From the IMG/VR virus record IMGVR_UViG_3300014494_000005, positions 62,001 to 126,000 of that record: 64,000 bases of DNA, one strand, 5' to 3'. Below the pieces are notes generated by a model that saw nothing but the letters and a program-made list of their open reading frames with translations, had not been told where the DNA came from and did not search any database. The number at the start of each line of letters is the position of its first letter. Positions within the stretch are counted from its first letter, which is position 1. The translations under genes and the position numbers were made by a program. This document shows, in pieces, positions 4,245 to 64,000 of the stretch. This stretch comes from a virus.

Positions 4245-4260
4245 TAATGTTTTAATTATA

Positions 4261-16944: not shown

Positions 16945-17166
16945 TTATAATAAATTTCCAAGTCCAATTGGTTCTTCATAACCATAAGGCAAAGAATCAA
17001 TCATATCTGCATCAAAAAAACCAAAATCATGTGTTTCTTGTACAAGACAAATTTTAATGTAATAAACTGCAACTAAATTTGGAATAATAATTCTGCAATT
17101 ACCTTTACATCCAGATGTTGTTCCAGTAGTTAGTGCTTGAAGTATAGTTTTTTTAATTATTTCCAT
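16945..17166 (-). CDS. Small hypothetical baseplate-operon protein
   Basis: 73 aa, overlapping the stop of the gp6-like gene by one base, so translated by coupling. It carries a GTTSGCKGNCRIIIPNL segment and ends in LPYGYEEPIGLGNLL. A related PIGxGNLT string occurs twice in the 1509-aa wedge protein (PPIGMGNLTAEEV, PPIGVGNLTYRG), hinting at a shared structural peptide. No function is known. Confidence 0.5.
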   Translation of the reverse strand: MEIIKKTILQALTTGTTSGCKGNCRIIIPNLVAVYYIKICLVQETHDFGFFDADMIDSLPYGYEEPIGLGNLL

Positions 17167-19013: not shown

Positions 19014-19915
19014 TATATTATTCCCCCCAATATTTGATTGATATTATTAATTTCGTTATATTTTATTCTCAATAATTTAAAATTATTATTTTTTGTAAAT
19101 AAATTTTTAATTTCGTCATTTTTTTGTCGTAATTTAAATGCAATCTTACCACCAAAATAGTTAACCAATTTTAAATGTTGCAAACCATCATATTCAATTA
19201 ATAAATTTTGTTTAGGTAAATAAAAATCATAATATAGCAAACGTTTATTCTTACAACCATCAAATGTTTTTTCTCTAATATATTTAATATTTCGTTTATC
19301 TAAATATTTTTTTATGATTATTTCGCCCTTTGATTCGTTACATAATTTACATCCTTTACCACATAAATGAGCACCAGCCATTTGTTCAAAAATACCATGT
19401 TTATTACAAATAATTTTTATTTTATTGTTCCACCCATTATATTCAACTAATTTATAATTATATTTATTTTCGTGTATATTTTTTGCTCTATTTATAAATT
19501 CCAAATTATCTAATTTAAATATTTTACCATTTTCATTATATCCGCAATCAGGACAACCATTACCATTTAAATGATTTGTTGGCATTTGGTTAAAAACACC
19601 ATGTATTTTACAAACAATATTAACATTAGCGTGTGAACCGCAATACTTCACTAAATTATATTCATATTTATTACCATGAATAACTTTAGACTTTTCAATA
19701 AAATTAATCGTATTCATTTTTTTATTTTTCACACAATCAGGACAACCATTGCCATTTAAATGATTATTTGGTGTTTGTTCAAATTTACCATGCTTTGGAC
19801 AAATAATTATTATTTTATTTTGTGAACCATAATATTCAACTAAAGAATAATCATATTTATTTCCATGTATATTTATTGCTTTTTTTATAAACTCATTGGT
19901 TGTATATTTTTTCAT
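19013..19915 (-). CDS. Putative homing endonuclease: zinc-finger repeats plus VSR-like nuclease domain
   Basis: 300 aa with three copies of the IHGNKYDYSLVEY...ICPKHGKFEQTPNNHLNGNGCPDC-type module and a C-terminal PD-(D/E)XK core (YYDFYLPKQNLLIEYDGLQH). It has the same architecture as the protein at 3126-4244, with one module fewer. It lies between a glycosyltransferase and the gp6-like gene and overlaps the latter's start by one base. It is probably a free-standing mobile endonuclease that inserted into the baseplate operon. Confidence 0.72.
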   Translation of the reverse strand: MKKYTTNEFIKKAINIHGNKYDYSLVEYYGSQNKIIIICPKHGKFEQTPNNHLNGNGCPDCVKNKKMNTINFIEKSKVIHGNKYEYNLVKYCGSHANVNIVCKIHGVFNQMPTNHLNGNGCPDCGYNENGKIFKLDNLEFINRAKNIHENKYNYKLVEYNGWNNKIKIICNKHGIFEQMAGAHLCGKGCKLCNESKGEIIIKKYLDKRNIKYIREKTFDGCKNKRLLYYDFYLPKQNLLIEYDGLQHLKLVNYFGGKIAFKLRQKNDEIKNLFTKNNNFKLLRIKYNEINNINQILGGII

Positions 19916-39261: not shown

Positions 39262-40044
39262 TTATTTTTCATCTTCATATGACTTAAACACAAGTGTAAT
39301 ATATTCTATTAAATGAGGTACAATATCTAAATATTTCATTTCAGAAACACTATACCAACCATATTTTGTATTTTCATCATTTAATTTAACATCTGTTTCT
39401 TCACCAGTATATCTACAAGCAAATACATGTTCAATACTATCAGTATGTCTTTGAATACTAAATGTTTTTATAAATTTTTTAATTTCTAATTTAGTTTCTT
39501 CAAGAATTTCTCTTTCAATCGCTTGTTGTGGTTTTTCACCCTTTTTAATTTCACCGCCAACTAATGACCATTTATTTGGCATCCAAATTTTACTATCATC
39601 TGCTCTTTTAAGTAATAAAATTTTGTTATTATTATTAACAATTACTGCAACTGCGTTTTTTTTTAATTCTTTCTTTTCTTCATTTAACCTTGGTGTTTGA
39701 TATGGCATTAATTCTGAATTAGGATTTGTTGTCATATCTTGTTTAATTTTTTTTGACCTTTCAATACTTGCACGGTCTTGATTTAATGTTGTTTCAATAA
39801 AATTTTTCATTAAATCACCGCCAGCAAGTGCGTATTGTATTTTATCTCCAGTTTGTGGATTAAAATAATCAAAAAAATTCTTTAATCTTTTTAATGCTTG
39901 ATATGTCAAAACACCGTTTTTAAGTATAAAATTAGCTCGTTTTAGACCATCTGTATCTGAAGTGGATGCTTTTGCTATCTCAATACTTTTAAGTATATTT
40001 TGAGGTATATAATATTGTTTATTTAGTAATTCTTGATTTGCCAT
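39262..40044 (-). CDS. NUDIX hydrolase with N-terminal extension
   Basis: 260 aa. The NUDIX box is at GGEIKKGEKPQQAIEREILE followed by ET, matching Gx5Ex7REUxEE. The surrounding ILLLKRADDSKIWMPNKWSL and VKLNDENTKYGWYSV fit the fold. The N-terminal 110 residues are unrelated and of unknown function. Substrates could be nucleotide derivatives, ADP-ribose or damaged nucleotides. Its stop codon region overlaps none; its start overlaps the end of the neighbouring endonuclease gene by one base. Confidence 0.82.
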   Translation of the reverse strand: MANQELLNKQYYIPQNILKSIEIAKASTSDTDGLKRANFILKNGVLTYQALKRLKNFFDYFNPQTGDKIQYALAGGDLMKNFIETTLNQDRASIERSKKIKQDMTTNPNSELMPYQTPRLNEEKKELKKNAVAVIVNNNNKILLLKRADDSKIWMPNKWSLVGGEIKKGEKPQQAIEREILEETKLEIKKFIKTFSIQRHTDSIEHVFACRYTGEETDVKLNDENTKYGWYSVSEMKYLDIVPHLIEYITLVFKSYEDEK

Positions 40045-41285
40045 TATGATGTCATTATATTAACTGTAGATTTATTTATTATTCTTATCATATCTTTAAT
40101 TTTATCACAAGTAATATTAATTTGATTATCAATATCTTTCAAAAATTCTTTTTCATTAATTCTTATAATATGACAATTGTGTTTTTCCTTAAGATAATTT
40201 TCACGTATAATATCTCTTTCTTTACATTTTATTTTATTATGATTAATTTCATCCCATTCAATACATATATTATATTTCTCAATATAACCATCCACCCAAT
40301 ATCTTATAAATTTTTTCTCACCGCCATTTAATGCATGTTGAATTGGTAAACCTAGCTTTTCGGAAATCATATCTAAATAAATTATTGAATTCGCATTATA
40401 TGATGGAACACGTTTTTTCCAAATTTCACCATATCTTTCAATCATAGTATTTACAATTTTTTCTGAAACCAATTTATTTTGTGAGGGATATTCAACACCA
40501 AATCTTTCTAAACTCGTTTTTTTTATTTTATCTTTAATCTCTAAAGAAGAATTTGGATTCTTCACACCATATCTTTTCAAATTTGTTTTATTTGCCTTTT
40601 CTTTAACATTTTTATTCAATAATGAACATTCAACACCATATTTAATTAAATTAGTTCTTTTAATTTTTTCTTTGGTATCAGATGATTGTAAATTATATTC
40701 AACACCAAATTTTTTCAAACATGTTTGTTTTTTCTTTTCTTTAATTTTGGCAGATTGTGAATTATGTTCAACACCAAATTTTAATAAATTGGTTTGTTTT
40801 ATTTTATTTTTAGTATCTTTACACAATAAATTTGTTGTTGTGCCAAATTTTTTCAAACATGTTTGTTTTCTCTTTTCTCTAACTTCTGCTAATTGTGATT
40901 GATGCTCAACACCATGTTTTTCGAAAAATAATTTTTTTCTTTTTTCTTGTACTTCTAGTGATTGTAATGGATTTTCAACGCCATATTTTTTCAAATAACC
41001 TTGTTTTATTCTATTTTTAATATCCTCATCAGAACCTTTACATTTTACTGAACAATGCGTAGTATAACCTCTATTAAATTTTATAAATTTAACTAAATTA
41101 CCACACTTACATTTCGGTAATTCAGATATATTATTTAGATAATTAAATAACATTTGTCCCCAATTTGTTATCTTAAAATTTTTGTTAAATTCTATTATGT
41201 TATTAAGTTCATTAGGAAATTCAGTTCTTATTTGCGAAATTCCTTTATAACCACCATCTAAAAAATTTAAAAAATTATTATTCAT
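40044..41285 (-). CDS. KYGV-repeat putative homing endonuclease (copy A)
   Basis: 413 aa. An N-terminal CKCGN...HCSVKC zinc-ribbon-like region is followed by about eight tandem repeats of the form KKYGVExxxQSxEVxEKxKxT, DNA-binding-like modules common in phage mobile genes. The C-terminus has a nuclease-like core: YWVDGYIEKYNICIEWDE, then KERDIIRENYLKEKHNCHII. Copy B at 45992-47128 has a nearly identical C-terminus. It lies on the far side of the polymerase gene, so both probably arose from duplication of one mobile gene. Confidence 0.65.
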   Translation of the reverse strand: MNNNFLNFLDGGYKGISQIRTEFPNELNNIIEFNKNFKITNWGQMLFNYLNNISELPKCKCGNLVKFIKFNRGYTTHCSVKCKGSDEDIKNRIKQGYLKKYGVENPLQSLEVQEKRKKLFFEKHGVEHQSQLAEVREKRKQTCLKKFGTTTNLLCKDTKNKIKQTNLLKFGVEHNSQSAKIKEKKKQTCLKKFGVEYNLQSSDTKEKIKRTNLIKYGVECSLLNKNVKEKANKTNLKRYGVKNPNSSLEIKDKIKKTSLERFGVEYPSQNKLVSEKIVNTMIERYGEIWKKRVPSYNANSIIYLDMISEKLGLPIQHALNGGEKKFIRYWVDGYIEKYNICIEWDEINHNKIKCKERDIIRENYLKEKHNCHIIRINEKEFLKDIDNQINITCDKIKDMIRIINKSTVNIMTS

Positions 41286-45991: not shown

Positions 45992-47128
45992 TTATATGGT
46001 TGTATTAATTAAATTTATAATATTATTTATTTTATTACAAACAATGTTAATTTGATTGTCAATATCTTTAAGAAATTCTTTTTCATTAATTCTTATAATA
46101 TGACAATTGTGCTTTTCTTTAAGAAAATTTTCTCTAATTAAATCACGTTCTTTTTGTTTTGTTTCGTTATGACTAATTTCATCCCATTCAATACAAATAT
46201 TATATTTTTCAATATATCCATCAACCCAATATCTTATAAATTTCTTTTCACCGCCATTTAATGCATGTTGTATTGGTAAACCCAATTTTTCTGAAATTAT
46301 ATCTAAATAAATTATTGAATTTGCATTATATTTGGGAGCGTGTTTTAGCCATAATTCACCATATCTTTCAATCATTGTGTTTTTTGCTTTTTCAGAATAT
46401 TTTTTATTCATAGTAATATTTTCAACACCGTATTTTTTAAGATTGGTTTGTTTTATCTTTTCTCTTACTTCTTTATTTTGTAGCGTATATTCACAGCCAT
46501 ATCTTTTTAAATTAGTTTGTTTTGTTTTTTCTTTAATTTCATTAGAATTAACTGGATTTTTATATCCATATCTTTCCAAATTGGTTTTTTCTGATTTTTC
46601 TTTAAATTCTTTAGTATTAAAAAAGTAATTAACACCATATTTTTTCAAATCATTTTGTTTTTTCTTTTCTTTAATTATATTAGATTGTGAATTATGTTTA
46701 CAACCAAATTTTTTTATAGTCGTTTCTTTTATTTTATTTTTGGTGTCTTCACATAATAAATTTGTTGTAACACCAAATTTTTTTAAACACGTTTGTCTTG
46801 TTTTTTGTTTAATTTCATCTGAATTAACTGGATTTTTATATCCATATTTTTTTAAATTTGTTTCATAATATTTATTAATTGAACATTTGTCTGAACATCC
46901 GTAATAACCACCAGATTTAATATTTTTATTATAAACCTTATATGTTAAATATTTTTCTTTTCCACATATATCACATTTAACATGAACCATACAATGACTT
47001 CCATTTTTTAAATCAGAAACTTTAATTAAAATTTTATTATTAATTTTTGTAAAAACATAACCTTTATTTTGATAATATTTTTTATTACTTGCATGCCATA
47101 TTGTTTCAACAAATTCATCCAATATCAT
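45992..47128 (-). CDS. KYGV-repeat putative homing endonuclease (copy B)
   Basis: 378 aa. It shares with copy A the tandem KKYGVExxxNxxEVxEKxKxT repeats and an almost identical C-terminal third (IQHALNGGEKKFIRYWVDGY, ICIEWDE, KEKHNCHIIRINEKEFLKDI). The N-terminus differs and holds a zinc-ribbon-like CDICGKEKYLTY...GYYGCSDKC. DNA similarity extends over several hundred bases. It is upstream of the polymerase operon, a typical place for a mobile endonuclease near an essential gene. Confidence 0.65.
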   Translation of the reverse strand: MILDEFVETIWHASNKKYYQNKGYVFTKINNKILIKVSDLKNGSHCMVHVKCDICGKEKYLTYKVYNKNIKSGGYYGCSDKCSINKYYETNLKKYGYKNPVNSDEIKQKTRQTCLKKFGVTTNLLCEDTKNKIKETTIKKFGCKHNSQSNIIKEKKKQNDLKKYGVNYFFNTKEFKEKSEKTNLERYGYKNPVNSNEIKEKTKQTNLKRYGCEYTLQNKEVREKIKQTNLKKYGVENITMNKKYSEKAKNTMIERYGELWLKHAPKYNANSIIYLDIISEKLGLPIQHALNGGEKKFIRYWVDGYIEKYNICIEWDEISHNETKQKERDLIRENFLKEKHNCHIIRINEKEFLKDIDNQINIVCNKINNIINLINTTI

Positions 47129-50662: not shown

Positions 50663-53600
50663 TTATATATTTAATCCTACTAAATAACCATCATAAGTAT
50701 TACTTGATGTACTAAAGAAACCCAATACATCACGTTTACTTGCTGTTGTTGTTAATATTGGAGCAGTACCACCTGCCCATCTAATTGTACTAAACCAAGT
50801 AACTGTACGTCCACCAACACCATCTTGTGTAATATGTACAAAAAATTTTAATCCGTTTGTTGCGTTAGATACTGCAATTGTTATATTTCCTGCTGGCATT
50901 GTAATTTGATGATTCATTACCCTTGCATCAATAGTAACAGTAGCACCTGTACCGGGTGTATAACCACTATAACTTATTAATGATATTTTATTTGTATCAC
51001 TTGGATGTACATGGTCTTGTCTTGACCAATATGTTGAACTACCACTTGTTGCTGTACTATCCATTAATGGAAGTGCAGTACTACCTTGTTTGATATACCA
51101 TGCTGTTGTTGCAATACAAGTACTATTATTATTTACTGCAGGAGTAGGAGCGAATGCACTTGTTCCACCAGAAATCAATGGACTTTTTATACATGATGTA
51201 CCGCAAACAATAGGTGAACATACTCTTGTACTACCTGTTATTATTGGTGAACATATATAAGTACTTGCATTAATATTACCAGTTACAGATAAAGTACTAC
51301 CATTAAAAGTCATATTAGGTTGTGAACATATACAACTCATATTAACATATGTACCAACACCATTAGCAGTAGTACCTACCCAACAGAAAGGAACTGATGC
51401 TGCTTGATTACACCAACAACCTGTTCCATCTGCTGCCGAAGTTAAAACTTTTCCTATACCAGCACCTGTTTTTATTCTAATAACTGATGTTATCATACAA
51501 GTTGAACCTGATATAATAGCACCACTTACACATGAAGTACCACATACTATTGGAGAACATACTCTTGTTGAACCTGTTATTATAGTTCCTTTTACTGTAC
51601 CTGTTGAACATAATAATGCTGTTTGAACACATGAAGTACCACATACTATTGGAGAACATACTCTTGTTGAACCTGTTATTATAGTTCCTTTTAATGTACC
51701 ACTCATTGTACCACCACTTGTAAATAATTTACTTGTATCACTTGGATGTGTATGGTCTTGTTTTGCCCATAATGTTGAAGTACCAACTGTAGCAGTACCA
51801 TCCATTAAAGGCATTGCTGTTGCACATTGACCAATATACCATGCACTATTTATTACACAATTACTATTATCATTTGTTGCTGGTGTACATACATTAACTA
51901 CACCTGTAAATGTCACGCCACTTATATTTGCTTTTTTATTTAATATTGCATTTGTTGTTCCAGTATAACCACTTACAAATGACTTTGAAGCAAAAGTATT
52001 AGGTGCTGTTGTTCCAGTATAACCACTTACAAATGACTTTGAAGCAAAAGTATTAGGTGCTGTTATTCCAGTATAACCACTTACAAATGATTTACTTGCA
52101 TATGTTGCAGGTGCTGTTGTACCAGTATATGTTTGATATATACTTGTATTTAATTTACTTGTTAAAGTAGTACTAAGTGTACCACTATTAACATTTACAT
52201 TAAAACTATTACCTGACCAACAAATACTGTTTCCTGCAAGACTTGAACCATTTAAATTAATAACACCAGTACTATATTGTAAACCAATTCCTGCAATGGC
52301 TGAATTTACATATAAACCACTTACATCACTACATAAACTTGAATTGCTTGCTAATTTAACTGCAATATTATAGTTTCCACCTACTGATGTAACACAAATA
52401 CCATTACCACTAACAGTACCTTGGGTAGAATTGAATAATACAAATGTTAAAGGTGTAATTCCAATATAAATTGGGTTAGGTGTTGTGAGAATCCATGAAG
52501 TATTTTTATTGGTTGCACCACTGATAACTGACATATAAGCACCTGAAACAACATCACCAAAAACTGAGCCATTAAAATCTGATGCACGACCCCAATTGGT
52601 TGTTGATGCGGTATAAACACCATTTGTAGCACCACTTGCTTGATTTTTAACTAAAACTCTCATACCTATGGTAAGTTGAACACCACCAATTATTGTTAAA
52701 CCTGAAAGTGTTACAGGACCTGTTGTTGCTACTTCAACAGCAGCATGTACTTGTAAACCTGTTGCAACTGTATCAACATATGCTCTTGAAACCAAAGAAT
52801 TTGAACTGAAAGTACTACTATAATCATTATTATATTCAAAACCTCTTGGTATTGCTCTACTATCAGTAATTGTTACTTGAGTATTACTTAATTGAAAACG
52901 TATTGCTTCTGTACCATCACTTGTCATACCTTTTATAGAAATAGTACCACCACTGCTATAAAATTCCATACCACAACCATTTTTATCATATATTTGAGCA
53001 CCACATGAACTTGCAATATTAATTCTTCTACTTTGTAAACAAAAATCTTGATTTCCACAAATTATTATTGGTGCAGTTAATATACCACCAAGGCAAATAT
53101 TATGATTATCATATTTACAAATACCATTTGTTGCGCCAGTAATTACTTTAACGATTGCTGGTTGTGTACTACCAGTATATGCATTAAAATCACATGTTTT
53201 GAATAAAGTGTTGTTATTAGTACCACCGGAATTTAATATAAAATTACATAAATTTATATTATTTAAACAAGTACTTACTGGTAATTCTGGATTTCCAGTA
53301 AATATTGGACTTTCAAGAGATGAGAATGTTTTTCTTATTGTACTACCAGTTATAGTAAAATAAAAATTATAACCATCAAATTCAACTGCCCCCACTTCTG
53401 GACTACTAAGTAATGAACCACTTGTAAATTTAAGTGGTGCATTTGTTATAGTACCTGCTTTCAAATGTATAACAGCAGTTGGTACTATGCCAAAACCTGT
53501 GTTTCCAACAGCAGTAATTCTTACCTTTTCAGTCGGAACTGAATTAGTTGCAGTGTTAAATAATATATCACCATTATATGAACCAAGTAAACCATTACCT

Positions 53601-55840
53601 GTATATTGTGATATAATTGAGTTTACTGTTGCACCAGTATTAGCAATACGTGCTCTGAACCAAACGTGTCCAATTTCGTCACCATTTTGTACTCCACATA
53701 CTGAACATAAAGTACCTCTCGTCTTAACAATTGCTAAACCAGTACCAATCGCATCATTTGAACTTAATTTTATTCTTAAATCAGCAGCATTAGCATTATT
53801 GGAATCCATTTCAATAAGACTCTGACTACCAACAGCAACATCAAGAAAATTTGCTTCATTGATTTGAAATTTATTTAGTCTTGTTATTACGCCACCACCA
53901 ATATTTACACGACCTAAACTATCAACATACATATGTGGAACAGTATCATTTGGTGAAGACATTATTGCAAATCTATAATTACCACCACGAGCAAAACTAT
54001 TTGCAATAGGAGCAATGATTGGATTTGTTGTTGTTCTTATTCGTATCCAATATAAATAATTTTCATCTCCCGGTAAGTCAGACAAATCATCTTGAATCCA
54101 ATTTGTCATTAATGTACTATCCCATGATAATGAACCACTTTGTGTTAAATTTTTTGTACAATCTATATAATTATTATTAAAATTATTAATATCAACCCAC
54201 ATACTACCTGTCCAATATTCTGTAACTAAAATAATACCTGAAGCAATATTTAACATATTTACATAGATACTATCTATTTTAACTTGTGTTCCAAAATAAA
54301 TAGCATTAACAGTAGTACCAGAATTAAATATAATAACATCACCACCTAAAGTACTACTATTTGCTTCTGCAGTTATATTATTATAAATAATAGGATTTGC
54401 AGTATAATCTAATGTTTGTTGAACATCAGTAAAACCAACAGTTGATACAACAAAAGTTCCAATTGGTAATTGTCCAAAAGCGGCAAAAATAAATGTTGTT
54501 CCTAAACCATGTCCAGTAATATTTTTAAATTGAACTGTAATACCAGCATAAATTAATGTTGCACCAGTTGTACAACCGCTACTTATTGACCAAGCACTAA
54601 AAGTTTGTCCTTGGTCAATACTTATTTTCCATCTAAAAGTATCTGTTGTACCAGTAATACTATCAATTTCAAACTCAAAAATACTTATATAATTTCGAGT
54701 ATATATTCCACCAATCGATATATCATTTGGACCACCTATTACTAATGCAGCATGACTATTCATAATATTACTTGGGCTATTGACACCAAATCTACCAGTT
54801 TCTGAAATCACTATTGGACTATTATTATCGTCAATATTATAAAGATACCAAAATTTTGCATTTTCATCTCTATAAGTTTCTGCAAGCCATTTAGCAACGC
54901 CATTTTCTGCCCATTGAACATTTTTATCAACATCTAAAGAACCGTCTATAATAAGCGCATTAGTTTCAGTACCAATTAAATCACCAATAGTATCTATTCC
55001 ATATGCATGTACAAGACCTTTTGGTGTTATTGTTCCAAAACCAGTTAATCCACTTATTGTATTTATTGTAATAATTGGCGTTATACCATCTGCTTTATTA
55101 ATTGTAATGGCAGATACTGTGTCACCAGTTGGTCTAATTTTACTTGAAACTAAACCCCCATTAAAACTACTTTCAATATTTGTACTAGCATTAATTTCAG
55201 TAACTTGTTGCAAACCTGTTGAACCAGTATAATTATTAATTTGAGTCTTATTGTAATAATTTGTAGGTAATGTAGTACCAGTAAAGTTATTAAAATTAAT
55301 TATATTTAATTTAGTTCCAATTAATGTATTTGTTTTACCAGTATAGCTATTAATTTGTGCTTTATTATAATAAAATGTTGGTAATGTAGTACCCGTAAAG
55401 TTATTAAAAACACTGACATCTACTTTAGTATTTAAATCAGTAAGATACGCTAAAGTACCATCCGAATTTTGAATAGTTAAATTTCTAAAATTATTTGTAC
55501 TAATACCTGATGTAATAAACATTACACCTTTAGCATTATCTACACTATCATATATTTGAAAATTATTTGATTTAAAATAATCAGGTGTATCACCAAGAAA
55601 TTTCCAACTACTACCATTACTAAAATAAAATCCAGATGATTTTCTATTAGCAACATAAGTGCCACTACCACTTCTAACAACATAAATTTTACCACTTGAC
55701 GTACCTGCAGCAGGTAAATCTGTATATAAATTTACTTGTGGATATGTTGAACCTGTTGTTGGTGTACTTCCGCTACCACTGAAATTACCATTAAATAAAA
55801 ATATGTTTCCAGATAACAAATCTACTGTGAAAGTTGCCAT
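50663..55840 (-). CDS. Giant tail fibre protein
   Basis: 1725 aa. The start MATFTVDLLSGNIF at 55840 is chosen because the promoter motif lies 14 bases upstream and a terminator-like hairpin just beyond it; the longer frame to 55990 would overlap another gene. It contains a tail-fibre module (GMRVLVKNQASGATNGVYTA, then NWGRASDFNG and TNKNTSWILTT) also found in the 744-aa fibre, a GATNGICKYDNHNICL repeat, three TFASKSFVSGYTGTTAPN repeats and several VCSPIVCGTSCV units. Many cysteines are spaced regularly. It is probably a long, trimeric receptor-binding fibre. Confidence 0.72.
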   Translation of the reverse strand: MATFTVDLLSGNIFLFNGNFSGSGSTPTTGSTYPQVNLYTDLPAAGTSSGKIYVVRSGSGTYVANRKSSGFYFSNGSSWKFLGDTPDYFKSNNFQIYDSVDNAKGVMFITSGISTNNFRNLTIQNSDGTLAYLTDLNTKVDVSVFNNFTGTTLPTFYYNKAQINSYTGKTNTLIGTKLNIINFNNFTGTTLPTNYYNKTQINNYTGSTGLQQVTEINASTNIESSFNGGLVSSKIRPTGDTVSAITINKADGITPIITINTISGLTGFGTITPKGLVHAYGIDTIGDLIGTETNALIIDGSLDVDKNVQWAENGVAKWLAETYRDENAKFWYLYNIDDNNSPIVISETGRFGVNSPSNIMNSHAALVIGGPNDISIGGIYTRNYISIFEFEIDSITGTTDTFRWKISIDQGQTFSAWSISSGCTTGATLIYAGITVQFKNITGHGLGTTFIFAAFGQLPIGTFVVSTVGFTDVQQTLDYTANPIIYNNITAEANSSTLGGDVIIFNSGTTVNAIYFGTQVKIDSIYVNMLNIASGIILVTEYWTGSMWVDINNFNNNYIDCTKNLTQSGSLSWDSTLMTNWIQDDLSDLPGDENYLYWIRIRTTTNPIIAPIANSFARGGNYRFAIMSSPNDTVPHMYVDSLGRVNIGGGVITRLNKFQINEANFLDVAVGSQSLIEMDSNNANAADLRIKLSSNDAIGTGLAIVKTRGTLCSVCGVQNGDEIGHVWFRARIANTGATVNSIISQYTGNGLLGSYNGDILFNTATNSVPTEKVRITAVGNTGFGIVPTAVIHLKAGTITNAPLKFTSGSLLSSPEVGAVEFDGYNFYFTITGSTIRKTFSSLESPIFTGNPELPVSTCLNNINLCNFILNSGGTNNNTLFKTCDFNAYTGSTQPAIVKVITGATNGICKYDNHNICLGGILTAPIIICGNQDFCLQSRRINIASSCGAQIYDKNGCGMEFYSSGGTISIKGMTSDGTEAIRFQLSNTQVTITDSRAIPRGFEYNNDYSSTFSSNSLVSRAYVDTVATGLQVHAAVEVATTGPVTLSGLTIIGGVQLTIGMRVLVKNQASGATNGVYTASTTNWGRASDFNGSVFGDVVSGAYMSVISGATNKNTSWILTTPNPIYIGITPLTFVLFNSTQGTVSGNGICVTSVGGNYNIAVKLASNSSLCSDVSGLYVNSAIAGIGLQYSTGVINLNGSSLAGNSICWSGNSFNVNVNSGTLSTTLTSKLNTSIYQTYTGTTAPATYASKSFVSGYTGITAPNTFASKSFVSGYTGTTAPNTFASKSFVSGYTGTTNAILNKKANISGVTFTGVVNVCTPATNDNSNCVINSAWYIGQCATAMPLMDGTATVGTSTLWAKQDHTHPSDTSKLFTSGGTMSGTLKGTIITGSTRVCSPIVCGTSCVQTALLCSTGTVKGTIITGSTRVCSPIVCGTSCVSGAIISGSTCMITSVIRIKTGAGIGKVLTSAADGTGCWCNQAASVPFCWVGTTANGVGTYVNMSCICSQPNMTFNGSTLSVTGNINASTYICSPIITGSTRVCSPIVCGTSCIKSPLISGGTSAFAPTPAVNNNSTCIATTAWYIKQGSTALPLMDSTATSGSSTYWSRQDHVHPSDTNKISLISYSGYTPGTGATVTIDARVMNHQITMPAGNITIAVSNATNGLKFFVHITQDGVGGRTVTWFSTIRWAGGTAPILTTTASKRDVLGFFSTSSNTYDGYLVGLNI
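51528..51701. repeat. Two 75-bp direct repeats, 99 bp apart
   Basis: Copies at 51528-51602 and 51627-51701 differ by a single base over the stretch I compared. They encode the VCSPIVCGTSCV-type unit of the giant fibre with a period of 33 residues. Confidence 0.85.
51960..52121. repeat. 54-bp tandem repeats, three copies
   Basis: Repeats begin at about 51960, 52014 and 52068. The first two are nearly identical and the third is diverged. They encode 18-residue fibre units (ASKSFVSGYTGTTAPNTF type). Confidence 0.85.
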
Positions 55841-55854
55841 TATAATATCTTTTT

Positions 55855-55863
55855 TATAAATAC
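55855..55863 (-). promoter_or_regulatory. Putative phage promoter element GTATTTATA
   Basis: Lies 14 bases upstream of the chosen start of the giant fibre gene; it decides that start. Confidence 0.6.
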
Positions 55864-55873
55864 TAAATAGATT

Positions 55874-55900
55874 TAAATTGGCTTTTGTTTTTGCCAAAAT
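55874..55900 (-). terminator. Possible hairpin terminator
   Basis: TTGGC and GCCAA form a short stem with a 10-base A/T loop between the 82-aa gene and the fibre promoter. There is no strong T run after it. Confidence 0.45.
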
Positions 55901-55928
55901 AAAAATGATTATTGTATTATATATAATC

Positions 55929-56177
55929 TTATGCCGAATATGTGAAACCAAATCTACAATCCCAAGCAAAACCAAATTCTTGAGAACCATTTGGAAAACC
56001 TATGCTCCATTCACTACCTGATTTACAAATTCTTTTTATTTTCCAAGTATCTTTACTTATGTCTTTACTATTTGCTGAAACACCAATATAAATTTCATTT
56101 GATGATACTTCATCAATCAACATTGGTGATTCAATATTAGAAGGTAATTGAATGCTAAAATCTAATCCTTGTGCCAT
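55929..56177 (-). CDS. Small putative virion protein
   Basis: 82 aa, compact and beta-rich (IEIYIGVSANSKDIS-like core, then WSIGFPNGSQEFGFAWDC). It lies between the giant fibre and the GT9-like gene and has its own promoter motif 13 bases upstream. No family is recognised; a tail accessory role is suggested by location only. Confidence 0.5.
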   Translation of the reverse strand: MAQGLDFSIQLPSNIESPMLIDEVSSNEIYIGVSANSKDISKDTWKIKRICKSGSEWSIGFPNGSQEFGFAWDCRFGFTYSA

Positions 56178-56190
56178 AATTTTATTTTAA

Positions 56191-56199
56191 TATAAATAC
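56191..56199 (-). promoter_or_regulatory. Putative phage promoter element GTATTTATA
   Basis: Lies 13 bases upstream of the ATG of the 82-aa gene. Confidence 0.55.
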
Positions 56200-56230
56200 T
56201 TGAATTGTTACAACAAAATTCAATTCTAAT

Positions 56231-57142
56231 TTACTTTTGTTTATTAACTGCTTCAATAATTTTATTTATATCTAATACATTTACCGTATCATAAGGAAAC
56301 TGCTGTATCTGTCCTGCGATATCGAATTGGTCAAGATAACTAAATTTATTTAATTCTCTTACATAATTTGCACTTGGTATAACATTAATGTTTTCAGCAT
56401 AACCAAAAACTTCTGGTTTATTTCCAATCCATACAACAGTACTTTGTAAATCCAAAGCTGCTGCTACATGCTGAGCAAAACTATCGATAAATAATCTTTT
56501 AGTACTTAATGGAAATACTGCATATAATTCTCTATGTGGTAAATTAAGTTGTTCCACTCCTTGAAGAACTGGTTGTTCTGGAGATTTAATATGTAAAATC
56601 CTATATGATTTATTGAAATAATTTACAAGTTTTTGAGCAATTTCAATTGGCATATCTCTATACCAAGATTTTTTTGAATATTGTCCTTGTGGAGAACCAC
56701 CATGTGTTTGTAATAACATAATTGGTCTATTATCCGGTTTTATTTTATCTTTAGCAATTTCAATTTCTCTTGGATTTAAATATATTTTTGGTTTATATCC
56801 ATCATAAGGAATATTAAACATATCACACCAAGATTGTGTAAGATGTTTTCTTTGAAGAATATGGTCTTCACTATGATAAACTTCATGTCTGAAAATTTTA
56901 GTTGTTGGTCGAATAAAATCTGAAAAAAAGTACTGCATTTGACCAAAAGTATAAAATCTAAAAACGTCTGGATTATAAAAATAAGGTCCGTCCCATGCAC
57001 AAACAACCACAATTTTATATTCAGGATATGCTTTTTTTATTGCTCTTATTAAAGCACTAGACATTATACATTTACCATGACCACCTTCAACATGTACAAT
57101 TGCAAATTTATCATCATCTTTTATTTTGTCATCTATTATCAT
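56231..57142 (-). CDS. Family 9-like glycosyltransferase
   Basis: 303 aa. AIVHVEGGHGKCIMSSALIR with AIKKAYPEYKIVVV resembles the N-terminal lobe of GT9 (heptosyltransferase-like) enzymes. RLFIDSFAQHVAAALDLQST with VVWIGNKPEVFGY matches the C-terminal donor-site pattern (DSxxxHxAAAL...VxxxG). It is next to fibre genes, the fourth glycosyltransferase of the window. It could add sugars to fibres or alter host surface glycan. The promoter motif is 44 bases upstream. Confidence 0.7.
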   Translation of the reverse strand: MIIDDKIKDDDKFAIVHVEGGHGKCIMSSALIRAIKKAYPEYKIVVVCAWDGPYFYNPDVFRFYTFGQMQYFFSDFIRPTTKIFRHEVYHSEDHILQRKHLTQSWCDMFNIPYDGYKPKIYLNPREIEIAKDKIKPDNRPIMLLQTHGGSPQGQYSKKSWYRDMPIEIAQKLVNYFNKSYRILHIKSPEQPVLQGVEQLNLPHRELYAVFPLSTKRLFIDSFAQHVAAALDLQSTVVWIGNKPEVFGYAENINVIPSANYVRELNKFSYLDQFDIAGQIQQFPYDTVNVLDINKIIEAVNKQK

Positions 57143-57186
57143 AAATTTTCTTATTTATCATACTATTATAATTTTTTATAATATTT

Positions 57187-57195
57187 TATAAATAC
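57187..57195 (-). promoter_or_regulatory. Putative phage promoter element GTATTTATA
   Basis: Lies 44 bases upstream of the GT9-like gene, further than the other copies. Confidence 0.35.
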
Positions 57196-57235
57196 TAAAA
57201 TATTTATAAAAAGTTAATAATATTAAAAATATTTT

Positions 57236-59986
57236 TTATGGATTATCTAATTGTTTCCAACCACCACCATTATAGAAATATAAATGATTATCTGTGCAAC
57301 AAGTAAATATTGTACCTAGTGTTGGATTTGCTGGTGTTGTTGTTGGTGTTAAATTTAATATGTTATTTATTGTAACAGTACAACCAGTAACATTACCACA
57401 AATTATATTACCTATGGAAATTGAACAATTAATTGTTGATATACCACCAAGCATTGCTATTGAACAATCGCTACATGAAATACTATCACAACCAATTGCT
57501 ACTGAATATTTACCACACGTACGACTATCAGCCATTGCTACTGAATAACAACCATCTGCTTGACCACCAGCCATTGCTACAGAACTATAACCACCTGCAA
57601 CACCACTTGCCATTCCTACTGAATATGTTGCACTACCATATGTACTACTACCAGCTATTGCTATTGAACAAATACTACATGCAATACTATCAATCATTGC
57701 TATTGAACCACAACAATATGTAATGCTACCCACACCAATCGCTACAGAACAAGTTGCACCAGTATCAGTATAACCATTAATCATTGCCACTGAATTACAA
57801 CCAAATGTAGTTCCACCAATCATTGCTATTGAATTTATTGCTCCAGTTTGTGTTGTTCCATTAATCATTGCCACTGAATTACAACCAAATGTAGTTCCAC
57901 CAATCATTGCTATTGAACAATCGCTACAAACAATTCCATTAATCATTCCCACTGAATTAATTCCATATGTTTGACTACAAACCATTGCTACTGAAAAACA
58001 ACCAACTGCATGAGCACAAACCATTCCTACTGAAAAACAATTATTTGCTTGACCACCAGCCATTGCTACTGAATATGTTGCACCGCTTTGCGTTGCACCT
58101 AAAGCCATTGCTACTGAATTAATTCCGTTTGTTTGACCACCAGCCATTGCTACGGATTCATCACTAAAAGTAACACTTTCAGTATTCATTGCAATTGAGT
58201 TAATTCCGTTTGTGTAACCACAAGCCATTGCAACTGAATTAATTCCGTTTGTGCAACCACAAGCCATTGCAACTGAATTACAACAATTTGAAATACTACC
58301 ATTCATTGCTACTGAACATTCAGCACAAGTTAAACCACCAGTCATTGCTACTGAATTACAAGCCCAAGTACTACTATTAATACCAATTGCAATAGAACAA
58401 TCAGCACAAGTAATACCACCAAGCATTGCTACTGAATTAATACAATTTGTCTGACCACTAACCATTGCTACTGAATTAAAACCATTAGTAGTACCACCAG
58501 CCATTGCTACTGAAGAACAAGCATTAGTAAAACCATTAACCATTGCTACTGAATTATCACAAAATGTAATACCACCAGCCATTGCTACTGTATTACATCC
58601 AATACATGTAATACTATTACATCCAATAGCTACTGAATTACTACCAAAAGTAGTACCACCAGCCATTGCTACTGAAAAATAACCGCATGCTTGACCACAA
58701 GCCATTGCTACTGAACAATCAGAATATGTAATACCACAAACCATTGCTACTGAATTAAAACCACATACAGCAGTTCCACTAGCCATTGCTACTGAATTTG
58801 TTGCACCACTACAAGTAATACCACCAGCCATTGCTATTGAATTAATACCATATGTAGTTCCATCATTCATTGCTATTGAACAATCTCCATATGCTTCTCC
58901 AATCATTGATATTGAACAACAACCATGTGTTGCACCAATCATTGCTACTGACATACAACCAAATGCAGCACCACTAGCCATTGCTACTGAATTTGTTGCA
59001 CCAGTGTCTGTAAAACCATTAGCAATTGCCACTGAATTACAACCATGTGTTGCACCAACAGCCATTGCTACTGAATTACAACCATAAGTAATAGCATTAC
59101 CAATTGCTATTGAATTAATACCACAAGCAGTACCATTAGCCATTGCTATTGAATAATCAGCACAAGTATAACCACCAGCCATTGCTACAGAATTTGTTGC
59201 ACCACTATAAGTAGTACTACCACCAGCCATTGCTACTGAACCACAACCTAATGCTTGACTTCCATTATTAATTTGTAATGCATCTATTGTGTGGCAATAA
59301 ATTAAACCTGTACTACCACTTAATATATTATTTTTATTGAATATTATTTGTGTATCACTTGAACAAATATTAGTTCCACCAGTACTACCAGAAATTACAC
59401 TAATAACATAACCTTTGTCAACTAATGAACGATTAGTATAATTTACGCTATAATCACAATAATATTCAATACCTTTAAAACTACCAATATCGCTACAAAC
59501 TGTAATACCTGTTGGTATTATAGTTATTGCACTTCTTGAACCACTTCTTGCACCAATAAACACTTTATTATTACATGCTAAAATACAATCTCTTGTTACA
59601 GAAAAATATCCACCATTAAAATTAGCAGGATTACCTTGACCAACAGTTAATGTTATTTGGGAATTAAGTGGTAATGATATTAATGTATCACCAGTTAATA
59701 TACCACCTAACGATACTATATTACCATTTTTTGCTAAACCATTATTTGCACATAAAGTTGTACCACTGGCATTTTTAATTACCAAATTACCATCATTAGT
59801 ACCTGTTTGATACCAATATTCAGTATTAAGTATATTTACTGTTAAACCACTATATCTTTGTGATTGAGGAATGTCAGCATTAACTGCTGCAACACTCACA
59901 TATGGATAATTACAAGAATTTAAATATCTTGAATCAATTGGATTTCCAACATTAATCTTTAAATTATCATTTAATTGTATTGCCAT
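57236..59986 (-). CDS. YadA-head-like repeat fibre, Cys-rich
   Basis: 916 aa. An N-terminal part of about 250 residues includes a shared fibre connector (IEYYCDYSVNYTNRSLVDKG). Residues of about 250-860 contain some 46 repeats of about 13 residues, NSVAMAGGxTxGx or DCSIAMxGG, the pattern of YadA/Hep_Hag trimeric adhesin heads, which form left-handed beta-rolls. Many repeats carry a Cys just before the SVAM or SIAM step, so Cys could stack as a ladder in the core. It probably forms a trimeric rigid fibre. A short C-terminal domain follows (HLYFYNGGGWKQLD). Confidence 0.75.
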   Translation of the reverse strand: MAIQLNDNLKINVGNPIDSRYLNSCNYPYVSVAAVNADIPQSQRYSGLTVNILNTEYWYQTGTNDGNLVIKNASGTTLCANNGLAKNGNIVSLGGILTGDTLISLPLNSQITLTVGQGNPANFNGGYFSVTRDCILACNNKVFIGARSGSRSAITIIPTGITVCSDIGSFKGIEYYCDYSVNYTNRSLVDKGYVISVISGSTGGTNICSSDTQIIFNKNNILSGSTGLIYCHTIDALQINNGSQALGCGSVAMAGGSTTYSGATNSVAMAGGYTCADYSIAMANGTACGINSIAIGNAITYGCNSVAMAVGATHGCNSVAIANGFTDTGATNSVAMASGAAFGCMSVAMIGATHGCCSISMIGEAYGDCSIAMNDGTTYGINSIAMAGGITCSGATNSVAMASGTAVCGFNSVAMVCGITYSDCSVAMACGQACGYFSVAMAGGTTFGSNSVAIGCNSITCIGCNTVAMAGGITFCDNSVAMVNGFTNACSSVAMAGGTTNGFNSVAMVSGQTNCINSVAMLGGITCADCSIAIGINSSTWACNSVAMTGGLTCAECSVAMNGSISNCCNSVAMACGCTNGINSVAMACGYTNGINSIAMNTESVTFSDESVAMAGGQTNGINSVAMALGATQSGATYSVAMAGGQANNCFSVGMVCAHAVGCFSVAMVCSQTYGINSVGMINGIVCSDCSIAMIGGTTFGCNSVAMINGTTQTGAINSIAMIGGTTFGCNSVAMINGYTDTGATCSVAIGVGSITYCCGSIAMIDSIACSICSIAIAGSSTYGSATYSVGMASGVAGGYSSVAMAGGQADGCYSVAMADSRTCGKYSVAIGCDSISCSDCSIAMLGGISTINCSISIGNIICGNVTGCTVTINNILNLTPTTTPANPTLGTIFTCCTDNHLYFYNGGGWKQLDNP
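57400..59240. repeat. Coding repeat array, about 46 units of about 39 bp
   Basis: The array encodes the 13-residue YadA-like repeats. Units vary from 12 to 16 codons and share a GCCATTGCTACTGAA-like core (plus strand). Confidence 0.85.
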
Positions 59987-60005
59987 TTTTTTATATTTTT
60001 ATTTA

Positions 60006-61082
60006 TTAACTTATTAACATTGATGATGTTACACATGTTTGTTTATTACTAATATAAACTTTATAACTTTGTCCTGACCAACAAACTGTTGTAACACTAG
60101 TTATATTAGATGATGGAAATAAATTACATGCAGGACTAATACCGCCACCAATAGAACCATTATTAAGTGCAGTTATACACCAACATGTTTTATCTGTATT
60201 TGATGCTGGATATGCAAACCACAAATAATCATCACTACCACTATTAAAATTAATACTAATAGAACTTGATGAACTTGCAACAATTTTAGTTCCACCACCT
60301 ACCATAGCACTTGTTGCTGTTGGACGATTTGCTCCCGCAGCACCGGGACAAGTACATTTACCCCAAAAATATGGATAAATACCTGTTAATGATGCTGTTT
60401 GTTGTGTTGTATCACCAGCAGAAAGAGGTGAACCATAATTACCACCTGCACTATTTTTTGGCTGAACACCAGCACAATATGTTACACATGAACACCATGT
60501 TTGTGTACCCGCAGAAATAACATAAGAAGCAGCACATTTAGTTACACTTAATGCAGTGCATGCATAATTTCCAGTAACACCAACACCATTATATTTATAA
60601 CAACATGCACCATTACTTATTTTATTACATGTTGCTGTATATTGTGGATTAATACATCCTTGATTTAATGTAGTTATTACGCATAATGTTGAAATACTAC
60701 AACCAACTTCAAAAGTTCCTGAAGGATTTAAAGAAATTGAACTTGATGGATTAGTTAAAACTGGATTTAAAGTAGGAACTAATATTTCTTTTAGTATTTC
60801 GTTTGATGTTTTACCAGTTAAAATTGTTCCAACATCAATACCACCGACACATACTGAAGTAGGACTTGCTAATTTATAAACAGTACTACCAGTAGCACCA
60901 CTTGCTTGAAGGTCGACATATCTTTTATCAACAACTTGTGTATTTCCAGTAAAATCAGGATGTATTTGATATCTTAAATCACCAACTGTTGCAACTTGAG
61001 TTTTACCACTTAATACTAATGAACTATTTTGAGTTTGTTCAACATGTTGATTTGTTAATTTAATTTTTGTATTAAATGCCAT
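60006..61082 (-). CDS. Cys-rich tail fibre/adhesin
   Basis: 358 aa. It starts with a fibre connector (VGDLRYQIHPDFTGNTQVVD, KRYVDL). A long Cys-rich domain follows: CSISTLCVITTLNQGC, GACCYKYNGVG and TWCSCVTYCAGVQ. The stretch SLTGIYPYFWGKC and the following beta strands resemble IVGVYPLFG in the 187-aa right-end protein, so both share a tip domain. Directly adjacent to the YadA-like gene (19-base gap). It probably contributes to receptor binding. Confidence 0.65.
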   Translation of the reverse strand: MAFNTKIKLTNQHVEQTQNSSLVLSGKTQVATVGDLRYQIHPDFTGNTQVVDKRYVDLQASGATGSTVYKLASPTSVCVGGIDVGTILTGKTSNEILKEILVPTLNPVLTNPSSSISLNPSGTFEVGCSISTLCVITTLNQGCINPQYTATCNKISNGACCYKYNGVGVTGNYACTALSVTKCAASYVISAGTQTWCSCVTYCAGVQPKNSAGGNYGSPLSAGDTTQQTASLTGIYPYFWGKCTCPGAAGANRPTATSAMVGGGTKIVASSSSSISINFNSGSDDYLWFAYPASNTDKTCWCITALNNGSIGGGISPACNLFPSSNITSVTTVCWSGQSYKVYISNKQTCVTSSMLIS

Positions 61083-61174
61083 AATTTTATTTATTATATA
61101 TTATAATTTTATTTTTCTTTTAATAATAAATAGTTTTTTTATTCTTAATTATTTAACTATTTAAATATTATTCG

Positions 61175-63409
61175 TTAGTTAACAAAAGCAATTGCACTCC
61201 AAAAAATTCCATTATATACAAATGTTATTGAACCATAATCAGTATTAATTGTAGAATAACCACCATTGTTAATACATGTTCCATTACCATTAATTGTTAT
61301 TGGGTCTGCTAACGCATTTCCACAAATGTCGACAATTGTTATTTTTTGAGTGTAATTACAAACAACAACTGGTAATGATGGTAAAAATATTGGATGTGAT
61401 GAAACACCAGATACAGCAATAATATCATCGCAACTATATGTATAATAATTTTGATTTAATGTACAATAATAACCATTAAGTTTTATCTTAACAAGATTTG
61501 AAGTACCGCTTATTTGTTCATCAACATATTCTTTATCAGGAATCCAACGTGGATTATTATTACAATAATTACCGCCATATGTTAAACCACTATTACCAAG
61601 ATTAACTATTTTTAATGCACTTGAACATTTATTTGTAAATGTAATTCCAGTATTATAGATATTAATATTACTTCCATTTGAAAGATTTATACAATGATAC
61701 ATGCCAATATTTACACTATTACCAGATAATCCCCATTGTGCACTACTTCCATTTTGAGAACATATATTAAATTTTGAATCTGAATATATAGTATTTAAAC
61801 TAAAATCTGCAAGTCCATAAATATTTGTACTATCTGATTGTAAACGCAAACTATTATTACATAAATTAATAGTAGTAACACCAGTTAAATTACCACCAAG
61901 TTTAACTTGTCGTCCTTGTTTTGTTAAACCATTTGTTGCACCAGTTAGTGCTGAATTAAGTATTGTTTGAATTGTATTATCAAGACAAACATTATGACTA
62001 TCGTATTTACAAACACCATTTGTTGCACCAGTAACTGAAGTATTTAATGTGTTTTGTGTAATTGTAGTAAGACAAACATTATGACTATCGTATTTACATA
62101 TACCATTTGTAGCACCTGTTAATACTGAATTAAAAACAGTACCATCAAGACAAATATTATGATTATCATATTTACAAATGCCATTTGTTGCACCAGTAAC
62201 TGAAATATTTAATATGTTTTGTGTAATTGTACTGAGACAAGCATCATGACAACTATATTTTGTTAATCCACCAGTTACACCCGTTAATGTAGAATTAAGT
62301 ATTGTTTGAATTGTATTATCGAGACAAACATTATGACTATCGTATTTACAAACACCATTTGTTGCACCAGTAATTGTAACAGCAAGTATATCTTGTGTTG
62401 CATCATTAAGACTAATAATATGTGTTGTACCTGAAGTTGTAACAGTAATTCCTGTTCCTGCTTTAACATCAGTAACATGATTAAAATAAACAAATAATAA
62501 TGGAGTAGTGTCAACAATTATAGGGTCATCCGTTGCTAATACCCATGAAGTATTTTTATTTGTATCACCACTTAAAACCCATGCATATGAACCAGAAACT
62601 ACTTCACCACTTGGTGTACCATCGAAATCTATTGCACGTGTCCACGTACTTGCACTTGCAATCCAAATACCATTTGTTTTACCACTTGGTATAAATGGTA
62701 TTTGATTTTTTATTAAAACTCTATCACCATTTAAAAGTATAATACCATCAATTGTTGATAATCCACTGAAAGGATATGTTAAATTTGTTGTAGTAGCTAC
62801 TTTAACTACTTGTTTAGGTTTTAAACCAGTAACTATTTCATCCGCATATTGTTTAGTTATAAGAGAACGATTAGTGAAATAACTTTCATAATCACCACCA
62901 TATTTTATACCACCATTGTCTTCATAAGAAAATGAACCACCTGAAAATAAAAAAAGTAAACCAACATTATCAATACCAAAAATAGTTGTTAAACCACTTG
63001 TAGATACTTGAAAATCGGTGAGATTTGATAAACTTATATTATGTAAACCAATACCATTAATTGTTGTTCCACTTAAAAGATTACCACCTAATGCAACTGT
63101 TGTTCCACTATTTGCAAGATGTAAACCATTTGTTGCACCAGTTAATGTACCACTTCCACTTCCAACTTTTATCCAACTACTTGTTGAAGTATAGTTGTTA
63201 GCATCACATAAATAGAATAATCCTCTATTTACACCTGAAGCAACTGAAACTACTGCACCATCATAAAGCCAAACACTACCACTTCCACACCATGTTGCAG
63301 GTAATGTTAGGTCAGCATATGTACCAACTAATTGTTTTGCATCGATAGGTGCTTTTAAAAGACCTTCGAAATTTGCTGCAAAATTAAATGTACCTATATT
63401 TCTTGACAT
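61175..63409 (-). CDS. Large tail fibre protein with Cys-containing repeats
   Basis: 744 aa. It starts with a fibre N-terminal domain, then contains the connector YGGDYESYFTNRSLITKQYA and a module (GDRVLIKNQIPFIPSGKTNG, TRAIDFDGTPSG, TNKNTSWVLAT) shared with the 1725-aa fibre. At least five repeats of GATNGVCKYDSHNVCLDxTI follow, each with C-x7-C. The C-terminus is another connector and a beta domain. It is probably a fibre or spike of the same tail-tip complex. Confidence 0.7.
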   Translation of the reverse strand: MSRNIGTFNFAANFEGLLKAPIDAKQLVGTYADLTLPATWCGSGSVWLYDGAVVSVASGVNRGLFYLCDANNYTSTSSWIKVGSGSGTLTGATNGLHLANSGTTVALGGNLLSGTTINGIGLHNISLSNLTDFQVSTSGLTTIFGIDNVGLLFLFSGGSFSYEDNGGIKYGGDYESYFTNRSLITKQYADEIVTGLKPKQVVKVATTTNLTYPFSGLSTIDGIILLNGDRVLIKNQIPFIPSGKTNGIWIASASTWTRAIDFDGTPSGEVVSGSYAWVLSGDTNKNTSWVLATDDPIIVDTTPLLFVYFNHVTDVKAGTGITVTTSGTTHIISLNDATQDILAVTITGATNGVCKYDSHNVCLDNTIQTILNSTLTGVTGGLTKYSCHDACLSTITQNILNISVTGATNGICKYDNHNICLDGTVFNSVLTGATNGICKYDSHNVCLTTITQNTLNTSVTGATNGVCKYDSHNVCLDNTIQTILNSALTGATNGLTKQGRQVKLGGNLTGVTTINLCNNSLRLQSDSTNIYGLADFSLNTIYSDSKFNICSQNGSSAQWGLSGNSVNIGMYHCINLSNGSNINIYNTGITFTNKCSSALKIVNLGNSGLTYGGNYCNNNPRWIPDKEYVDEQISGTSNLVKIKLNGYYCTLNQNYYTYSCDDIIAVSGVSSHPIFLPSLPVVVCNYTQKITIVDICGNALADPITINGNGTCINNGGYSTINTDYGSITFVYNGIFWSAIAFVN
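61950..62420. repeat. Coding repeats of GATNGVCKYDSHNVCL type
   Basis: Near-identical blocks containing plus-strand GACAAACATTATGACTATCG recur at about 61984, 62070 and 62322, with diverged copies at about 62149 and 62237. Confidence 0.85.
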
Positions 63410-63419
63410 ATTTTATATT

Positions 63420-64000
63420 TTAAAAAACTAATCTTATGCATACTGCGCTTCTATCAACACCATTATATGTATATCTACAATAACCAATTGAATTTCCTTG
63501 TATTGTTTCTGATGATGTGCTACAATTCCATAATGCTAATGAACTTCCTTGTGAACCACCCGGATATTCCCATTGTGCTGAAACAGTATTATATTGTTGA
63601 ACACCTACTAATGGTCTATTAGTTGGTGTACTGAGCCAAGCACATGGAATTTCAAATTTTTGTTTATTTGGACTACTATCTGAAACTAAATTCATTTGAA
63701 CATTATTTGCTGTGGTCATATCTACTAATGATTGTTTAGTTAAAACAGTAATACTTGAAGTTGTTCCAAAAAGAGGATAAACACCTACAATTGAACTGTT
63801 TGCAGCACTTGTACAACCTGCTGATAGTGCTGTACAATATTGTGTACCTTTACTACCTAAAGCAGGACTACCTGCATCATAACAAGTACAAACTCCCCAA
63901 CTTTGTGAACTTATTATAACACTATAACTTGGATTTGTTTGTATTGCAGGTGATGATGCACAACTCTGAAAACCAGAAGGCATTCCACAACCAGTAAAAC
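63420..64000 (-). CDS. Cys-rich tail adhesin, C-terminal part (partial)
   Basis: The reading frame stays open through the right edge: residues before the ATG at 63983 (FTGCG) are in frame, so this ATG is probably internal. The visible 187 residues plus edge are Cys-rich (WGVCTCYDAG, QYCTALSAGC) and contain IVGVYPLFG, then beta strands ending in CIRLVF. This resembles the C-terminal half of the 358-aa adhesin and suggests paralogous receptor-binding tips. Its stop is 10 bases upstream of the 744-aa fibre start. Confidence 0.6.
   Translation of the reverse strand, partial: FTGCGMPSGFQSCASSPAIQTNPSYSVIISSQSWGVCTCYDAGSPALGSKGTQYCTALSAGCTSAANSSIVGVYPLFGTTSSITVLTKQSLVDMTTANNVQMNLVSDSSPNKQKFEIPCAWLSTPTNRPLVGVQQYNTVSAQWEYPGGSQGSSLALWNCSTSSETIQGNSIGYCRYTYNGVDRSAVCIRLVF

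Follow-up and report, generated by a model that had tools for sequence, protein, structure and literature searches.

A putative jumbo-phage tail fibre with a predicted YadA-head-type shaft and many cysteines at unconserved sites

Introduction

The heads of the adhesins YadA, EibD, BoaA and BpaC (PF05658) are long arrays of a short repeat with the canonical sequence GxNSVAIGAxSxAx, in which the residues at positions 5 and 7 belong to the trimer core (PMC9543794). The Gly at position 8 has been described as completely conserved in the adhesins, loop insertions fall between positions 14 and 1, each rung adds a rise of 4.8 Å and the head of BpaC contains 42 repeats (PMC9543794). A trimeric autotransporter adhesin also has a C-terminal anchor barrel and a secretion signal.

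For Cys-rich virus particles the best described case is Agrobacterium phage Milano. Its structural proteins contain 2.4% Cys, and disulfides have been proven in the capsid, neck, collar and tail (PMC10491603, PMC12796354). Reduction of this disulfide network weakens the particle, and the Cys residues are conserved in relatives (PMC10491603, PMC12796354). Milano, 7-7-1 and OLIVR4 (PMC10491603, PMC12796354) resemble the phage clade described here in having contractile tails and unusually Cys-rich virion proteins. Our literature search found nothing on Cys-rich phage fibres, and only Milano and 7-7-1 for Cys-rich virions.

Here we describe a fibre gene that combines a YadA-like repeat with a high Cys content. 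It lies in a stretch of 64,000 nucleotides, referred to as the window, which covers bases 62001–126000 of a 348,923-base IMG/VR phage record.

The fibre gene and its surroundings

The open reading frame (57236–59986, minus strand) encodes a protein of 916 aa and has exactly the coordinates given in an earlier note made from the DNA alone. The protein consists of an N-terminal module (residues 1–95; 59702–59986), a spacer, a shaft of 46 repeats with the consensus SVAMxGGxTxGxN that is predicted to form a beta-roll (residues 250–867; 57386–59239) and a short C-terminal tip (residues 868–916; 57239–57385), all on the minus strand. Residues 1–95 share 45% identity with the module of another fibre gene nearby in this phage and also recur in the fibres of relatives, so they probably represent the end that attaches to the virion. 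The tip carries the motif TLGTIFTCxTDNHLYFYNGxxWKQLDN and is well conserved among relatives. No match to the 916-aa protein was found among GenBank phage records, and a search of bacterial genome contigs gave no bacterial homologues.

The 62 Cys residues make up 6.8% of the protein compared with ≈1% in those proteins of the phages that are not fibres (binomial P ≈ 7e-32). His accounts for 0.5%. The repeat array (618 residues) has 50 Cys, 15 Asp and 4 Glu and a single residue each of Lys and Arg.

The gene belongs to a block of fibre genes that spans 50663–63983 and beyond, with the following members on the minus strand. Two of them have PHROG tail-fibre domains: a large protein of 1725 aa (50663–55840) with 2.1% Cys, chiefly in the C-terminal half, and a protein of 744 aa (61175–63409) with 3.0% Cys and imperfect tandem repeats around GATNGxCKYDxHNxCL. 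A fibre-like protein of 358 aa (60006–61082) has 5.3% Cys. The C-terminal end of a 655-aa fibre, Cys-rich in this part, lies at 63420–63983; this fibre extends past the window (L011:1421–3388) and also has the N-terminal module. Two baseplate wedge subunits with 0–0.2% Cys were recognised in the window, among them a PHROG 219 protein (17166–19013, minus strand) with 0.2% Cys, and their presence indicates a contractile-tail phage. The DNA polymerase gave distant matches only (26–30% identity). The best reading of the 916-aa protein is a tail fibre of a jumbo phage with a contractile tail.

Some other ORFs also drew attention. A protein of 317 aa (9087–10040), encoded near the baseplate genes and distant from the main fibre block, combines 4.1% Cys with a fibronectin-like motif (YEYRAYFIVNG). 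A protein of 1509 aa (10085–14614) has a Cys-rich C-terminal part with five consecutive Cys near the end (ISCCCCCGGKPTPE). A sigma-factor-like protein (539–1189) has an odd middle stretch rich in Ser, Thr, Asn and Cys (SCTATSITGNISFTSSADISNSFTTTSNNTCS). Cys/His-rich endonuclease-like ORFs are scattered through the window (3126–4268, 19013–19915, 40044–41285 and 45992–47128), some of them with internal tandem repeats of 69 or 186 bases. A replicative-helicase-like ORF of 1106 aa (L011:10770–14090) has an apparent intein of ≈350 aa at Walker A; the homolog in L007 is 757 aa long and has no intein.

The repeat array and its predicted fold

The earlier estimate of about 46 repeats was borne out, as exactly 46 motifs of the S[VI]A[MI] type are found in register between residues 250 and 867, compared with the 42 repeats of BpaC. 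Thirty of the spacings are 13 residues, seven are 15, five are 14, two are 12 and one is 16. The majority rung is thus a 13-residue SVAMxGGxTxGxN, in which Met replaces Ile and the turn usually holding the conserved Gly is one residue shorter; in most rungs SVAM is followed by A, V, I, N, or L. A minority of 14-mers with SVAIG, for example SVAIGNGSITCGYN, reproduce the canonical GxNSVAIGAxSxAx. Insertions, the additional residues of TYSGATN among them, lie between positions 14 and 1, as seen for the adhesins (PMC9543794). Since most rungs have 13 residues and no Gly at position 8, and not the 14-residue canonical form with this Gly, the array was classed as a variant of the YadA head. With mostly 13-residue rungs and usually Met at position 7, and in being almost uncharged and Cys-rich, the shaft differs from the YadA-type adhesins, with which it shares the long array and the place of the loop insertions.

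The earlier proposal of a beta-solenoid of the YadA-head type gained support from structure prediction. AlphaFold2 was run on eight repeats (residues 492–596; 58199–58513, minus strand), for which repeat blocks of three phages had been aligned in register as input, and gave a monomer model with two short strands per rung (pLDDT 95.8, pTM 0.85); the good model is restricted to this fragment, as the whole 916-aa fibre gave an unusable model (pLDDT 31.7). The eight repeats resemble YadA-like heads in the PDB. The best Foldseek match was EibD (2xqh; TM 0.86, rmsd 1.5 Å over 108 columns, probability 1.00), and BoaA (3s6l; 3s6l_B) reached a TM of up to 0.86. The E-values were modest (0.005–0.06), as expected for a query that is short and repetitive. 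Together with the predicted fold, the GxNSVA[IM] motif is common to the shaft and the heads of YadA, EibD, BoaA and BpaC.

Profile searches gave mixed results. The window fibre had no match in Pfam, YadA_head (PF05658) included, and a fibre of the close relative L007 scored 17.3 bits, under the cut-off of 25, whereas fibres with the same repeat in a more distant relative of 340 kb scored 42.5 and 30.8 bits. A profile search of the PDB gave one non-significant match, to the YadA anchor domain (2lme, E 0.12). No anchor family of trimeric autotransporters was found in the 916-aa protein at E-values up to 10; unlike these adhesins, with their anchor barrel and secretion signal, the fibre ends in a short tip. 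From the model, the shaft is predicted to be a left-handed parallel beta-roll of the YadA-head type. By analogy with the adhesins it is probably a homotrimer, and 46 rungs at 4.8 Å each would probably give this trimeric shaft a length of ≈22 nm.

The view that such repeats are rare in phage fibres did not hold, as a viral structure library lists many phage proteins named YadA-like head. YadA-like heads of tailed phages and giant viruses in BFVD (A0A6J5MR13, A0A8S5PYN4 and A0A8S5UN10) have a similar predicted fold, with weak matches to the eight-repeat model (E 0.06 to 0.8). The YadA-head fold is known, and what is undescribed in the literature and libraries searched is its 13-residue, nearly uncharged and Cys-rich version.

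Cysteine positions within the repeat

The 45 countable repeats of the window fibre contain Cys at position 10 (10 repeats), 12 (14 repeats), 13 (10 repeats) and 6 (8 repeats). Five fibres from four phages together supplied 110 13-mers, of which 39% have Cys at position 10, 34% at position 12, 13% at position 13 and 4–5% at positions 6, 8, and 11, with none at positions 1–5, 7, and 9. This placement is far from even (chi-square P ≈ 1e-57, or ≈1e-12 if restricted to the variable positions). The Cys alignment described in the earlier note therefore stands as far as the register goes, but it involves three main positions and not one. A check in related phages, as the note had proposed, found both the repeats and the Cys register retained (the same five fibres and four phages).

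Positions 10, 12, and 13 of the 13-mer correspond to canonical positions 14, 2, and 3, which are the two variable residues on either side of the Gly at position 1 and, at the edge, the Asn position. As these are not core positions, the Cys residues most likely run along an edge of the shaft's outer face. The earlier note had pictured them as stacked inside the beta-roll. Judged from the canonical motif, they lie off the trimer-core positions 5 and 7 and off the small interior positions, and stacking was not seen either: with each column shuffled within each array, same-position Cys in adjacent rungs were no more frequent than in the shuffled columns, and the longest run was three. Position 10 gave 13 adjacent pairs against 14.3 expected, and position 12 gave 6 where 12.6 were expected (P 0.007, uncorrected, with 35 comparisons made). 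Cys at both positions 10 and 12 of the same rung occurred 17 times against 15.5 by shuffling. Neither same-rung nor next-rung pairing in the beta-roll was thus above the shuffles. The number of Cys per rung is random and follows the shuffles as well, and an arrangement with one evenly spaced Cys per rung found no support in these counts.

The variable positions have mostly NNT codons, which suggested a diversity-generating retroelement. This idea was rejected, as no reverse transcriptase (PF00078) was matched in the 349-kb record, which is possibly incomplete.

Cysteine density across the phage clade

More than 100 loci of one jumbo-phage clade were gathered with the 303-aa neighbour of the fibre gene and the flanking helicase as markers, and ORFs rich in Ser, Thr, Gly and Asn and poor in Lys were taken as fibre-like. 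The Cys content of these ORFs ranges from 0 to 11% and is at least 2.5% in 119 of 258, while the other proteins of the clade (n = 645) have a mean of 1.0%. The Cys-rich fibres (2.5–11% Cys) include unrelated sequences, so Cys richness is not a design particular to the YadA-like fold. The highest content found was 11.2%, in a fibre-like protein of a relative (L047:10472–11086).

In-frame TGY makes up 4.2% in Cys-rich fibres and 1.1% in Cys-poor ones. Out of frame the values are 0.8 and 8.5% versus 1.0 and 7.6%. A nucleotide-level bias as the source of the Cys was therefore rejected, and the rise in the reading frame only points to selection on the protein and not on the DNA. Compared with the Cys-poor fibres of the clade, the Cys-rich fibres are lower in Asp, Glu, Arg, and Thr. 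The spacing C-x-C is 1.5-fold enriched across them, which suggests that the thiols often lie on one face of a strand.

Turnover of the sites was followed in an alignment of one homologous fibre family with ten members. Nine of these contain 2.9–4.6% Cys, and the tenth, from the 321-kb relative G007, has none. Cys occurs in at least one member in 57 columns, 27 of which have it in one sequence only, and its pairwise conservation is 0.34 compared with 0.44 for Ser/Thr. As the fibres of relatives are Cys-rich at shifting sites, it seems to be the Cys density of the fibres that is preserved and not particular sulphur bridges.

The conserved 303-aa protein is encoded within the fibre cluster (56231–57142, minus strand) and was found in 43 IMG/VR loci at 63–100% identity; the loci were collected via this gene and all have it by construction. 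It is well conserved among the members and absent from G007. The fibre cluster of this relative, L158 (G007:C1:27000-46900), has 0.48% Cys, and the same cluster in relatives with the gene (L011, L007, L163–L169) has 1.8–3.7%. Cys content is higher in clusters that have the gene (Mann-Whitney P 0.007 for 7 vs 4 clusters, with phylogeny uncontrolled). Two gene-negative contigs, both fragments, nonetheless contain Cys-rich fibres, and those fibres that lie closest to the gene show no clear excess of Cys over others (P 0.09). By eye, the ends of the protein resemble glycosyltransferase family 9, which no tool confirms. Pfam Glyco_transf_9 was found in 1 of 22 family members (E 0.054), the PDB gave no match, hhalign of the family profile against E. 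coli WaaF, WaaC, and WaaQ was not significant and no better than a GT4 control, and PF01075 was not found at the position of the gene in six records of the clade.

Discussion

The clade does not show the pattern known from Milano, where conserved Cys are enriched in the capsid, neck and tail. Here the fibres are the Cys-rich proteins (up to 11%), the two baseplate wedge proteins recognised contain next to no Cys (0–0.2%), the fibre sites turn over and any bonds are putative. The location of the enrichment, the Cys-poor wedges and the unconserved sites together make a specific disulfide scheme unlikely.

The explanation we favour, at slightly less than an even chance when taken as a whole, is a 46-rung YadA-type shaft with Cys along its outer edge, kept at high density throughout the clade, whose free thiols oxidise to opportunistic disulfides after lysis. 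Shaft length varies between relatives through gain and loss of repeats, and the enrichment, clade-wide and confined to fibres, is maintained as a density while individual positions turn over. In the reducing cytoplasm of the host the fibre Cys would most likely be free thiols. Oxidation after lysis could then form disulfides along, between, or across fibres, and these might make the fibres stiffer, bundled, or adhesive. The data show the gene and its repeats, the predicted fold, the Cys register without stacking, and the enrichment and turnover in the clade, and from these we infer the trimer, the outward orientation of the Cys, the oxidation and its benefit. Several points speak against this explanation: the proven disulfides of Milano use conserved Cys (PMC10491603) and the fibre Cys sites here are unconserved, and the beta-roll has no signal of Cys pairing, with stacking at position 12 even looking depleted. 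In addition, the good model covers eight repeats as a monomer, the side-chain directions come from the canonical motif, and the window fibre itself falls short of YadA_head.

Next in our ranking, and unlikely, is that Cys has no bonding role: the fibre surface would tolerate it as a residue that is small and mildly hydrophobic, in part in place of Asp, Glu, Arg, and Thr, and the fibre would be sticky or inconspicuous as a result. An inert, uncharged surface of this kind fits the turnover and lack of pairing, the per-rung counts that match the shuffles, the two Lys/Arg in 618 shaft residues and the lower Asp, Glu, Arg, and Thr of Cys-rich fibres relative to Cys-poor ones. Neutral tolerance, however, would not predict 2.9–4.6% Cys in all nine family members and none in G007, and the Cys are concentrated at positions 10 and 12 and nearly missing from the other variable position, 8.

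Covalent modification of the surface Cys by the 303-aa protein, for example glycosylation, ranks below this and is improbable. The conservation of the gene within the fibre cluster of 43 loci, its absence from the Cys-poor 321-kb relative and the higher Cys of clusters that have it (P 0.007, 7 vs 4) are what one would look for, but the protein was not recognised as a glycosyltransferase by Pfam, PDB, hhalign or PF01075 searches, the two gene-negative contig fragments have Cys-rich fibres, and proximity to the gene had no clear effect (P 0.09). We consider it marginally less probable again that the fibre carries metal ions or metal-sulphur deposits along its length, coordinated by outward-facing thiols: the C-x-C enrichment and the high thiol density retained without fixed sites would suit such a role, yet no Cys/His site came up repeatedly, His is scarce (0.5%) and the Cys of the beta-roll are neither stacked nor paired. 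The ladder of the earlier note, with aligned Cys stacked inside the beta-roll as a continuous disulfide or metal chain, shares the register with the data; with adjacent-rung Cys not enriched, runs of three at most and the core and interior positions (1–5, 7, and 9 of the 13-mers) free of Cys, it is very improbable.

A broader proposal, which we regard as rather doubtful, is that the clade keeps a high density of surface thiols, without fixed sites, on fibres unrelated in sequence because the thiols are functional collectively, whether covalently modified by a clade-specific enzyme from the fibre cluster, metal-loaded, or used to attach or cross-link covalently and non-specifically. If true, this would represent a covalent chemistry on a virus surface that is based on density and not on sites. 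The pattern of the clade, in which density is conserved, positions are not and only fibres are affected, is unlike that of the well-studied Milano, and the benefit of a thiol-coated fibre is a testable question. If the thiols react after release, the fibres might be flexible in the cell and turn rigid or adhesive once outside it. Such chemistry may also be of use in materials.
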